NCBI RefSeq assembly: GCF_945873775.1
Contig: NZ_CAMCEC010000002.1
Location: 1 to 64,000 of the forward strand
Length of the DNA: 64,000 nt
Source: an uncultured Treponema sp.
GTDB taxonomy: Bacteria; Spirochaetota; Spirochaetia; Treponematales; Treponemataceae
Direction: 5' to 3'
Each line of letters opens with the position of its first letter. Within the stretch, counting starts at the first letter, position 1. A model generated the notes under the pieces. It was not told the origin of the DNA. It saw only the letters and a program-made list of their open reading frames with translations, and did not search any database. Below are positions 219 through 56,508 of this stretch, piece after piece. Both the position numbers and the translations under genes were made by a program.

Positions 219-1642
219 TCACTCACTCGGAGGAATGTCGCCGTCGGTGCAGATTATGGTTGCTCTGGACAGCGCGATGTTTCCATTTTCTCCATAGGCT
301 TGAACACTGCTAATATTAGGCTTGACTTTTGTTTCCCAGTCGGATTTTGTACCTTGATATTTTACCGTCTTTAGATTTGTACAAGAGTAAAATGCAGCTA
401 TACCTATTTCTGTAATGCTGGCGGGAATTGTTATGCTTTCGAGCGAGGAACATTCATAGAAAAGTCCGACTGACAGTTTAGTCACACCGTCCGGAATCAC
501 GATATTCTTAAGGTTGCTGCAAGACATAAAAGCACCAGACTGACCAGAATTATCTTCTTCAAATTCCTTCAACGTGGAAGGAAGCGTTACATCTACAAGT
601 GAACTGCAATATTCAAATACATAATATCCTAAACTTTCCACTCCCTCGGGAATTACGATTTTTTCTAGTGAACTACAGCCATTAAATGCCCTATAAAGTT
701 TTCTCAAGGATGAGGGAAGCGACACATTCTTCAGGCTTGTACAGTTTTCAAAAGTAGCACCAAGTTCCTGAACGCCTTCCGGCACGACGATTTCCGTCAA
801 GTTAGAGCATAAATTGAAGGCGAAATTCCCAATAGAATCAAGCGTTTTTGGCAGAACCACATCCACAAGATTTATACACGTATTAAATGCGTAGACTTCA
901 ATACTTTTGACGCTTTGTGGAAGAATGATTCCCGCAAGATTTTCGCAGTTAAAGCTAGAATTGCCCCTGAACGCATTATCCGGAATCGCCGTAAGGTCAT
1001 CAGTTCCGCTCAGGTCAAGTATGATTCTTGCATCCGAGCTCTTTTCCAGCAACGCCAAAAGCGCATCCACTATTTTAGAAGGAGTATCTATGTCAGTCTT
1101 TGCCAGATAGTCCGCGACGTTTCCCACAACACTGACCGTATGCACGCCGCTTTCTGTAATGCCTTCGATTTTTTTGAGCGCGTTCTCAGCCGTAAGTCCC
1201 CACTTTGCGTAGAGAGTAAGGTCTGCGTCCAGAGTGATTTTTTCGCCGGCCGCATAGTTTTTGCCGGTCGCATTCGGCTTTGTATTCCAGCCTGCAAAAG
1301 TGTAGTCAAATCCGTTTTCGGTAAACTCAGTTCCAGCCGGGAGCGTGATTTCAGTTCCAGTAACTTCGGTAATGCTTGCGATTGTGCCAGTTCCGCCGTT
1401 CACGTCAAAGGTTACGGTGTAGGTTACTTTTGGTGTTTCGGGATTTGAAGGATTTGTGTCTGAGCCGCCGCCGTTTCCGCCGGAATCTGAAGGATTTTCT
1501 ACAGGCGTTGTTACTTGTCCGTTGTCGTCATCCGAGCCGCTTGAGCCGTCCGAACAAGAAGTGAATGAGAGCGCAAAGCTAAATGCAAGAATGCACGCTA
1601 TGACCGCATGGGGGGGGTAAAGAACTTGTGGTTGATTTTCAT
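219..1642 (-). CDS. BspA-like leucine-rich-repeat lipoprotein, out of frame at a C8 tract
   Basis: Predicted cell-surface lipoprotein. An ATG at 1642 has a GGAG ribosome site and a TTGTCA-N16-TATAAT promoter. The first codons run into eight C on the coding strand (G at 1610-1617) and then a TAG. With nine (or six) C the frame joins a signal peptide ending in the lipobox SFTSC, a Gly/Ser/Asp-rich linker, an InlB/Listeria-Bacteroides-type repeat (NGGTGT...YTFAGWNTKPNATGKNYAAGEKI) and about ten BspA-type leucine-rich repeats (IVIPEGVESLG, ITIPASITEIG). The full product would be about 474 aa. The in-frame part alone is 219-1403, opening with a GTG. The BspA family is known for surface adhesion and often binds host or partner proteins; the ligand here is unknown. 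Phase variation or a homopolymer sequencing error would both explain the shift. Confidence 0.8.
1610..1617. repeat. G8/C8 homopolymer in signal-peptide codons
   Basis: Eight consecutive G on the + strand (C8 on the coding strand) lie 24 nt after the ATG of the LRR lipoprotein. Eight C leaves the gene out of frame; nine or six would restore it. Slipped-strand mispairing at poly-G is an established switching mechanism in Treponema pallidum. Confidence 0.75.
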
Positions 1643-1679: not shown

Positions 1680-1707
1680 ATTATAGTATGTTTATTTGAA
1701 ATGACAA
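1680..1707 (-). promoter_or_regulatory. Promoter of the LRR lipoprotein gene
   Basis: On the minus strand, -35 TTGTCA (1707-1702), a 16-nt spacer and -10 TATAAT (1685-1680) stand about 38 nt upstream of the ATG at 1642. This supports 1642, not 1403, as the true gene start. Confidence 0.65.
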
Positions 1708-1879: not shown

Positions 1880-3727
1880 TCAGCTGCTTTTCTTTAAAAT
1901 CACAAAACTTTTGGCTTCCATGGTGTTTGGAACAAAATCTTTTTGCTCTGGTTTTCCGCTTAAAACATCTATAGAATTCGTAAATCCGGCTGAATCGATT
2001 CTTGCAGAAGAATCCGTAGCGTTAAAATATATGCAGAATTTTCCGGCAGTATACTTTGTAAATCCAGGAAAAATTGTCTGCGCTGAACAATCAGTTTTTG
2101 AGCCGAACGAATCAGAATTTTCCCGGCGGAAGGCAAGAAGACCTTTATACGCATTGAAAATATCAGAATAGCGCGTTTTAAATTCCAAGTCGATTTGATT
2201 TATTTCATCGCTCGAATTGTAGCTGTTTTCATTTCCCTGCTTTGTGCGAAGAAATTCTTGGCCGCCGTTTAGAAAAGGAGTTCCCTGCGCAAGAATGATA
2301 TACGCCGCCGCAAGGATGTCCTGCCTTTTCACTTTTTCAAGCCCGTCATTTCCGATTGCCTCAAAAAGATTTCCTGAATACGAAGTTTTTTCAAGATACG
2401 AAATTGCAAGCTTGTCAAACAAAGTGTAGTTGTCATGGCATTCAACGTAATGAATTGAAAGGCTTGGAATGCCACTTGGATTCCGGTTGTTTTTTCCAGT
2501 CGCGCCAAGAAGTCCTTTTTCAATTTCTAAATCGCAGAAGTTTCCCTGAACCTGCCCCTTCGCAAATCCGCCGAATTCGCTTCCTTTTATTGCGTCTCTA
2601 AAATCATCATTGAACGCTCCGACTCCGCAATTTTCGCCGCAAGCAACTGAACCTGGGCATCCATTTTTTACAGCGCATTCTCCGCCAGTCCAAGGCTCTC
2701 CGTAAACCATTACGCACGGATCAATTTTTTTCAGCTCGCAGAAAATTTCCGACATCGTTTCCTGCTCCTGAACGCCCATAAGATCAAAGCGGAATCCGTT
2801 TATATGGAAATCTTTCATCCAGTGCTTGAGTGAATCGAGCACATATTTTTTTACCATTTTGTGATTTGTGGCAATTTCGTTTCCGCAGCCTGAACCGTTG
2901 GAATATCCGCCTTCAGAATTAAGCCTGTAAAAATATTTTGGAACAGTCATATCATAAAGCGAATTGTTTTCCGTGCCGTCAGTGTGATTGTAAACAACAT
3001 CCATTATCACGGCGATTCCCGCGTCATGGAACGACTTTACCATTTGCTGCATTTCTTTTACAGCCTGAAGTCCGTCAGTGTATCCTTGCGAAACGTAGCG
3101 GCCTTCTGGAACGTTGTAGTGAAAAGGATTGTAGCCCCAGTTGTATGAAAGATCTGAATTTTTTTGCGCATAATCGAACATCGGAAGAATCTGAACATGA
3201 GTTACGCCAAGCTCTTTTAAATACGAAATTATTTTTGGATCGGTCATCTCAAGAAATTTTCCAGTTGAAGCCGGATTTACAGCGCGGCTCCAGTCCCGGA
3301 TGTGCATTTCATAAATTACAGCTTTTGAATAATCAGTTTCTTTAAATGGATTTTTATATTCAGATTTTTCCATGACTGCGATTTGAGAGGCAACAGAATC
3401 CGGAGATGCGACTGTGTGCCAAATGTCAGCAACTTTATAAACTTCCGCGCCAAAAGAAATTTCATACTGATAGTAAGAACAGCCTTCATAAGAGCCGCTA
3501 AAAAACCAGATGCCTTTTTCCTTGCGTTCCATTTGCTTTGCGACGCATAATTTTTTTGCAGCTGAATCTTTAAACAGCAAAAGACGAACATTGTCAGCGG
3601 TCGGCGCCCAGCATTTAAAAGACGCAGAAGTTCCGTTAAGTGTTAAGCCAAGGTCATTTCCGTCGTAATAAAAATCGGAATCAATTGATTCTGCGGAATT
3701 TTCATTTGAATAATATTTTTTGTCCAC
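1880..3727 (-). CDS. pulA: Type I pullulanase (GH13)
   Basis: Hydrolyses alpha-1,6 branches of pullulan, glycogen or starch. An N-terminal CBM48/early-set domain (FYYDGNDLG...FKCWAPTADNV) precedes the GH13 barrel. Counting from the longest frame (TTG at 3754), the pullulanase signature YNWGYNP lies near residue 204, DVVYNHT near 252, FRFDLMG with the nucleophile Asp near 324, YGEPWTGG with the acid/base Glu near 353, and ECHDN near 438. No signal peptide, so a cytoplasmic role in glycogen or maltodextrin turnover is likely. I chose the GTG at 3727 because TATAAT ends 6 nt before it with a -35 TTGAAA 16 nt further up, and a start at 3754 would lie upstream of the -10. This gives 615 aa, normal for the family. 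Confidence 0.9.
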   Translation of the reverse strand: MDKKYYSNENSAESIDSDFYYDGNDLGLTLNGTSASFKCWAPTADNVRLLLFKDSAAKKLCVAKQMERKEKGIWFFSGSYEGCSYYQYEISFGAEVYKVADIWHTVASPDSVASQIAVMEKSEYKNPFKETDYSKAVIYEMHIRDWSRAVNPASTGKFLEMTDPKIISYLKELGVTHVQILPMFDYAQKNSDLSYNWGYNPFHYNVPEGRYVSQGYTDGLQAVKEMQQMVKSFHDAGIAVIMDVVYNHTDGTENNSLYDMTVPKYFYRLNSEGGYSNGSGCGNEIATNHKMVKKYVLDSLKHWMKDFHINGFRFDLMGVQEQETMSEIFCELKKIDPCVMVYGEPWTGGECAVKNGCPGSVACGENCGVGAFNDDFRDAIKGSEFGGFAKGQVQGNFCDLEIEKGLLGATGKNNRNPSGIPSLSIHYVECHDNYTLFDKLAISYLEKTSYSGNLFEAIGNDGLEKVKRQDILAAAYIILAQGTPFLNGGQEFLRTKQGNENSYNSSDEINQIDLEFKTRYSDIFNAYKGLLAFRRENSDSFGSKTDCSAQTIFPGFTKYTAGKFCIYFNATDSSARIDSAGFTNSIDVLSGKPEQKDFVPNTMEAKSFVILKKSS

Positions 3728-3785
3728 ATTGAAATTATACAAGAAATGAAACAAGTTTCAATGCGGATTTTTTCAGCCAGAAATT

Positions 3786-54780: not shown

Positions 54781-56508
54781 ATGAAGATTAAAAAAATGCC
54801 TGTGGCTTTATCGGCTTTACTTCTTTCACTGGGGGGGGCAGCTTTTGCAGATGATGCTCCTGTTAAACAGAACGCCTGGTTCGACCTTAAAATGCACAAC
54901 ACAGTTGGCTACAACCTTGAAGAAAAAATCTACGGAATGGAATCAACAGTTGACCAAGCGCAAATCTGGTGGGACTTGTTTCCTGGAGCAAACCGCGGCT
55001 ACAGCTCAGAAAACGACGGATTTTCTGTTTACTTTAGAGTTGAAGACTTGAGATACGTTTTCAAATTCTATGACGAAAAGAAAACTTACCTTGACAGCTA
55101 CAACGGCGGAGACGATTCACAGTCAGGAACTGTAGATTCAAAAAAACAGTCAACAGGATGGGAAGAACGTCCTGGAAACTGGAACGACAAAGCTTCAAAC
55201 TACTTTGACTATTCAAGCATTGTTGCTGGCGTAAAATACAGAAACTGGTTCATGGACTTCTACAACTTCAACTACGAAGACGGAGCTCAGGTTGGATTCA
55301 ACCACGCAAGCTTAAAGTCAATCTTTGACGACTTCCGCAGCGACAAGGCATTTGACACAGACAAGGACAACACTCTTGGCTTCTTGTACTACAACGGAAT
55401 TCAGGACACAAGAAACTTCCTTGACAAAGACACTGGAAGCCTTGGACTTACAGGCGTTATTTCCACAGGAGTTGAATTCGACAATCTTAAAGTTCAGCTT
55501 TCTACAGGAGCGGCAGGTTCTTGGATAAGCTCACAGGATCCAAACCTTGATGGACCAGACGGCTACGGAAGCGCAGACAGTCCTTACACTTCAAGCGCAA
55601 ACATCAAGAGAGGAAAAACTTATCAGAAGCTCAACGAAGGAAACGCCGGAGCAGTTCAGCTCGATGTTATGTTTAAGCCAACAGAGCAGCTTGAGCTTAA
55701 CTTGAGCGGACTTACAACTTTCAACTACAAAAAAGCTTATGAGTCCAGACGCAAAGGTCAAGACAGAAAGAATGAAAATATCAACTTCACAGAACTCAGC
55801 ACAGCAAAAGATATCCGTGCATTCGGCGCAGACATTACTTACAACATTGAAACTTCTAAAGGCGTAATCGCTCCTTATGCTGGAATTGACTACAACTATA
55901 GCGATGGAAGAACAAGAACTTACTACGATGACGGAGTAAGCAAGACAGAAGAGCAGAACAGCCAGTTTGAAGTTGGCGGCGGCTTGGCATGGTATCCACG
56001 CGGTGCAGACGCAAAAGCCGGACACGACTCTCTTGACTTCTGGGGCAGACAGTTCCCAATCGGAGCTTCTGTTGGTGTAAACACAGACAACAACGGAATC
56101 GCAAGCCTTGTAGTTTCAGCATTTGAAACACCTGATGAAAATGCGCTTATTCCAAACCTCGGCGGATTCGTTGAGTTTGAATGGGTAAACTTTGCGGAGC
56201 AGGACGGCGGAGATTCAAGATTCTTTGCAGCAGCCCAGCTTGAATACATGATTAAAACTGTAACAAAGAGCGGACTTTCTGTTGGAATCAAACCTTATGC
56301 GCTTGGACGCTGCATTCAGAGATGCGGTGCAAATCTCCAGAGAACTGGACAGTATACAGTGGACTCAAGACTTGGTCTTGTTATCTATCCTTCTGAAAAG
56401 TTCAATGTTGACTTCCGCTATGAACGTCAGGATCAGCTTTACACAAACAGCACTGACAACGACACTGACAAAGGATGTATCACAGGAACATTCAGCTTTA
56501 GACTTTAG
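54781..56508 (+). CDS. Outer-membrane protein of the mannan locus (G8 tract in signal peptide)
   Basis: A 575-aa predicted outer-membrane beta-barrel. The signal peptide is MKIKKMPVALSALLLSLGGAAFA; the mature chain has many alternating aromatic strands (NYFDYSSIVAGVKYRNWFMD, LEYMIKTVTKSGLSVGIKP) and ends in FSFRL. A role in oligosaccharide passage is inferred from the shared operator with the mannan operon. The Leu-Gly-Gly codons are CTG GGG GGG GCA, a G8 tract (54831-54838) that is in frame. The ATG follows GAGG. A longer frame to 54715 would overlap the promoter. Confidence 0.82.
   Translation: MKIKKMPVALSALLLSLGGAAFADDAPVKQNAWFDLKMHNTVGYNLEEKIYGMESTVDQAQIWWDLFPGANRGYSSENDGFSVYFRVEDLRYVFKFYDEKKTYLDSYNGGDDSQSGTVDSKKQSTGWEERPGNWNDKASNYFDYSSIVAGVKYRNWFMDFYNFNYEDGAQVGFNHASLKSIFDDFRSDKAFDTDKDNTLGFLYYNGIQDTRNFLDKDTGSLGLTGVISTGVEFDNLKVQLSTGAAGSWISSQDPNLDGPDGYGSADSPYTSSANIKRGKTYQKLNEGNAGAVQLDVMFKPTEQLELNLSGLTTFNYKKAYESRRKGQDRKNENINFTELSTAKDIRAFGADITYNIETSKGVIAPYAGIDYNYSDGRTRTYYDDGVSKTEEQNSQFEVGGGLAWYPRGADAKAGHDSLDFWGRQFPIGASVGVNTDNNGIASLVVSAFETPDENALIPNLGGFVEFEWVNFAEQDGGDSRFFAAAQLEYMIKTVTKSGLSVGIKPYALGRCIQRCGANLQRTGQYTVDSRLGLVIYPSEKFNVDFRYERQDQLYTNSTDNDTDKGCITGTFSFRL
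54831..54838. repeat. G8 homopolymer in signal-peptide codons
   Basis: Eight G, 50 nt after the ATG of the outer-membrane protein. The current length keeps the frame; a one-base change would switch the gene off. Confidence 0.75.

Follow-up and report, generated by a model that had tools for sequence, protein, structure and literature searches.

A poly-C tract in the signal-peptide region of a putative BspA-type lipoprotein gene very probably acts as a phase-variation switch in a presumed gut-type Treponema

In the window analysed here (the whole stretch of 64,000 nucleotides), a minus-strand gene for a putative BspA-type leucine-rich-repeat (LRR) surface lipoprotein carries a run of eight C residues in its signal-peptide codons, and this C8 tract (1610..1617) is very probably a slipped-strand phase-variation switch, making the gene a contingency locus. 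The tract lies between the start codon and an intact frame, so that a change of one unit would alter expression; its length differs among close relatives in which the flanks are conserved; and the full frame has been kept by selection while the gene is OFF. Replication slippage at 1610-1617 would add or remove one C. At the assembled length, translation from 1642 would stop after 14 codons (OFF), and a tract one unit longer would join the start to the intact lipoprotein frame (ON). Such switching would be reversible within a population, and the ON product, if exported, could serve to vary the surface presented to host or phage.

The C8 tract separates the start codon from the lipoprotein frame

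Direct reading of the minus strand from 1642 gives ATG AAA ATC AAC CAC AAG TTC TTT ACC CCC CCC ATG CGG TCA TAG, which places C8 in codons 9-11 and bears out the preliminary description, in which the tract led into a TAG. The truncated frame of the assembly (1598..1642, minus strand) thus encodes the 14 residues MKINHKFFTPPMRS before the stop. The promoter, ribosome site and ATG at 1642 named earlier were likewise recovered: a promoter-like TTGTCA-16-TATAAT (1680..1707, minus strand; 11 of 12 matches) is common to the paralogs, leader included, and a GGAG ribosome-binding site, read directly just 5' of the ATG (1651-1648, minus strand), is kept in most family members. On the 3' side of C8, the LRR frame is one unit out of step with the ATG and remains open for 462 codons (219..1607, minus strand), and the other two frames contain 27 and 32 stops across the same stretch; a tract one unit longer would join the lipoprotein signal to the BspA repeats, as had been claimed. 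The span first assigned to the locus, 1610-1642, comprises the tract and the start only, and the LRR gene extends to 219. An alternative start in the C8 frame was considered and rejected, both for the window gene, where that frame offers no ATG, GTG or TTG, and for the paralog L016, where the same frame has a TAA just 5' of the tract.

The post-tract frame encodes the predicted hydrophobic core of the signal peptide, a putative FTSC lipobox (Cys codon 1556-1554), a Flg_new repeat at about 1400-1203 (Pfam, E=1.1e-9) and BspA-type repeats matching LRR_5 (PF13306; E=2.3e-50, 170 bits against a curated cut-off of 27.7). Judged by eye, the ON-frame N-terminus reads MKINHKFF...AVIACILAFSFALSFTSC, with an atypical F at lipobox position -3, and the lipoboxes of paralogs, also assigned by eye, read FPSC, LTGC and CTSC. 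The upstream neighbour is an alpha-amylase/CBM48 gene (1880..3754, minus strand), which provides a synteny marker. Copies of an inverted repeat, ATTGCCGTGTC...GCACGGCAAT, lie on either side of the LRR gene at 149-172 and 1752-1775, and short repeats resembling it occur between genes elsewhere too.

Selection preserves the intact frame in a close relative

The genome that contains the window (G000; 2.59 Mb in 49 contigs) was compared with a genus set of 200 genomes, of which G084 and G145 proved the nearest relatives suited to comparison; we infer that the latter, with a chromosome of 2,731,853 bp, is Treponema succinifaciens 6091T. In G084, a syntenic ortholog (L107) adjoins the same amylase gene, is 91-95% identical to the window gene at the DNA level and has an intact frame of 440 codons. 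The amylase gene is also present in T. succinifaciens, where the LRR gene was not found beside it. Over 439 codons of the window gene and L107, Ks is 0.142, Ka 0.055 and Ka/Ks 0.385, with synonymous changes accounting for 40 of 93 substitutions against 23% expected (p=2e-5), and, apart from the tract, the coding indels measure 69 and 3 nt, both multiples of three, indicating that the ON frame evolves under purifying selection. A single indel, of one net base, alters the frame between the two genes, and it falls at the tract itself, which reads TTCTTTA-C8 in the window gene and TTCTT-C9 in its ortholog, leaving both OFF but in different phases.

A family that shares leader, signal and poly-C tract

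The module of leader, signal and poly-C tract is present in seven copies in G000, four in G084 and two in T. succinifaciens. A pattern search located it in 3 of 196 genus genomes, and DNA similarity, applied to 200 genomes, gave strong matches in those same three and short or weak ones elsewhere. In a wider set of genome contigs, which may omit near relatives, the leader pattern yielded one match, in Geobacteraceae, that was judged to be due to chance. Within the family, the shared leader is 78-99% identical in long matches, and the domains behind it are LRR_5, Flg_new plus LRR_5, or FGE-sulfatase. The C-terminal parts of L060 (G000) and L113 (G084) are near-identical and their middle and leader parts differ, a mosaic that suggests recombination. 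A copy of the leader promoter (L111) is also found at a contig end (G000:C3:51-94, minus strand), without the gene that would follow. More tentatively, and with our confidence a little short of even, the unit of about 200 bases formed by promoter, leader, signal and poly-C may be a portable phase-switch cassette, moved by recombination to genes with unrelated surface domains (BspA-type LRR and FGE-sulfatase-like). If so, a gut treponeme would gain a surface repertoire that is combinatorial and for the most part OFF, in addition to dozens of further tracts in promoters and coding regions.

Phase, defined as the number of nucleotides from the ATG to the end of the tract modulo 3, was determined for the 13 members from the three species: ten belong to phase 0 and two to phase 2, both of which are OFF, and one belongs to phase 1, which is ON. 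If all phases were equally likely and the relatedness of the copies is ignored, the probability of at most one ON member among 13 is about 0.04. The excess of OFF copies may be due either to populations being selected to remain mostly OFF or to shorter tracts being stickier. As far as the retrieved DNA extends, the post-tract frame is intact in 10 of the 13 members; L019, the sole member in the ON phase, is interrupted by a nonsense codon after a further 37 codons, L056 has a second frame break, and the T. succinifaciens copy L076 contains an in-frame stop.

The distribution of phases bears directly on whether C8 could instead promote programmed -1 ribosomal frameshifting or transcriptional slippage, which would supply a fixed minor fraction of full-length product with no genetic switch. 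The common phase of ten members despite diverged flanks is in keeping with this, as a -1 shift or one added mRNA base would join all ten. However, the second OFF phase is represented by two members, the ortholog of the window gene among them, and a further member is already in phase; a single shift cannot serve all family members because three phases occur among the 13. Nor do the sites resemble programmed -1 frameshift signals, which combine a single phase and invariant slippery site with a downstream structure: in five members, the 110 nt 3' of the tract fold no better than shuffled sequences (z from -0.98 to 1.39). In addition, the promoter-spacer tracts of the same genome (described below) have no frame to shift, and the explanation is accordingly improbable.

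The reading that the gene is a pseudogene, in which a fixed frameshift was followed by decay, fares worse still and is very unlikely. It would accommodate the nonsense codon of L019, the second frame break of L056 and the in-frame stop of L076, but it sits poorly with the 462 and 440 intact codons of the window gene and its ortholog at a Ka/Ks of 0.385, and with the intact post-tract frames of the 10 members. A decaying gene is not expected to give the pattern seen between the orthologs, whereas a gene kept for ON cells would. The preliminary description had regarded a tract of eight in all strains, accompanied by further decay, as evidence against switching; the relative in G084 has a tract of different length and an intact frame.

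G/C tracts are enriched across the genome

Phase variation as the function of C8 also agrees with the abundance of comparable tracts in the genome. Shuffles of the window give 0.22 expected C8/G8 tracts per 64 kb, compared with two found in the window, and the 95 overlapping C8/G8 matches in the genome exceed the roughly 9 expected by scaling from these shuffles about tenfold. Tracts were gathered by pattern search and then retrieved stretch by stretch, giving, at a minimum length of 8, 60 separate G/C tracts in G000 (33 of 8, 21 of 9, 4 of 10 and 2 of 11). The second tract of the window (C/G8; 54831..54838, plus strand) lies in the signal-peptide codons of a gene (54781..56508, plus strand; MKIKKMPVALSALLLSLGGAAFADD...) whose product is predicted to be exported, and the tract is in frame here; its counterpart in G084 is G9 and out of frame, with flanks 98% identical to those of the window. 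Among the 24 tracts that could be paired between G000 and G084, a set confined to those reaching 8 on both sides, eight differ in length, the second tract of the window being one of them, with the caveats that some pairs, such as a31/b36 and a47/b57, may be paralogs and that the difference at L038 is a substitution and not a slip.

Spacers between -35 and -10 elements hold 15 of the 60 tracts, against 0.7 expected, most of them 5' of lipoprotein-like genes. Tracts in spacers of 14-19 between TTGACA-like and TANNNT elements are found at L007 (2755), L014, L017, L018, L030, L038, L039, L040, L045, L049, L051, L052 and L059. Judging from their placement, the tracts in such spacers probably mediate transcriptional phase variation.

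In a second lipoprotein family of G000, the four copies with G8 are in frame and the three with G9 are out of frame, and a tract is also present in the gene for a solute-binding lipoprotein. G8-G9 tracts located within the signal peptide, shortly behind it or inside the coding region also occur in the lipoprotein genes L007 (1501-1509), L036, L047, L058, L055, L028, L012, L021, L031 and L001, in frame in some of these genes and out of frame in others. L053 encodes a protein with a Pfam EcoRI match (E=3e-131) and has a G9 tract (1501-1509) in frame near the start; this EcoRI homolog is possibly a phase-variable restriction enzyme. Acyltransferase and glycosyltransferase genes (L035, L024 and L067) carry G8, G10 and G11 tracts, making variation of surface glycans plausible. 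At L022 (1501-1523), two opposed tracts occur on one strand, GGGGGGGG-aaggctt-CCCCCCCC, where two long frames meet out of step. The window gene would be one of dozens of such switches in the genome.

Within the genus, poly-G9 is absent from G076 and reaches 57 overlapping matches in G112, the two ends of a wide range. Loss of MutS was considered as a cause of slippage and rejected, as G000, G084 and G145 each have a MutS domain gene uninterrupted by stops; with MutS intact, slippage at C8 may proceed at modest rates.

An assembly or sequencing error at the homopolymer, with a true length that is ON in all cells, is the least likely explanation of all, for although some platforms miscall homopolymers, many tracts of the same genome were called at 9, 10 and 11, the G084 ortholog shows base substitutions beside the tract as well as the change in length, and the finished T. 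succinifaciens genome (960x Illumina) holds two family members with C8 out of phase, which weakens the case for an error that the preliminary description had allowed for.

Collectively, purifying selection, a frame-changing indel confined to the tract, paralogs in three phases and genome-wide enrichment support the proposal, first made from the window, that this gene is a candidate phase-variable locus.

Comparison with known systems

Slipped-strand phase variation is a known mechanism that is apparently unreported in gut treponemes: we found no account of it in T. succinifaciens or gut relatives in the literature searched, which does not prove that none exists. The best-known examples of phase variation come from pathogens, and the tracts described here point to a commensal-type gut spirochete lineage with a large repertoire that extends over promoters and over lipoprotein, glycan-synthesis and restriction genes. 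The surface of such organisms is probably under-described, because standard annotation would label genes of this kind as pseudogenes or truncated ORFs. T. succinifaciens itself has been described as apathogenic (PMC3156407).

The protein resembles the BspA/TpLRR family (Pfam LRR_5, PF13306) in that the post-tract product of the window gene matches LRR_5, but the assembled gene is out of frame and an adhesin role is putative. In Neisseria, pilC and opa carry repeat tracts in the signal-peptide region of surface proteins, where frameshifts turn expression on and off; their proteins and lineage are unrelated to those studied here, and the likeness is one of resemblance only. A further parallel is Candidatus Mycoplasma girerdii, in which repeat length likewise serves as a switch for BspA-type LRR surface proteins: the repeat lengths of BspA genes vary among reads, the wild type is often OFF and ON variants occur at low frequency (PMC5476646). 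That system differs in being based on dinucleotide repeats, in belonging to a mycoplasma and in having no shared poly-C leader module.

T. pallidum, which bears the same genus name, provides experimental support for poly-G phase variation: outer-membrane genes (tprL, tprE/G/J and tp0126) have G tracts whose length, 8-11, differs within isolates (PMC7864442). Several tracts in the window genome sit between -35 and -10 elements, as at tp0126. However, the T. pallidum cases in that study act on promoters, whereas the tract of the window gene lies in signal-peptide codons and would switch translation; furthermore, unlike T. pallidum, the lineage of the window appears to be that of a gut-type treponeme, with a paralogous set of genes behind a shared leader.
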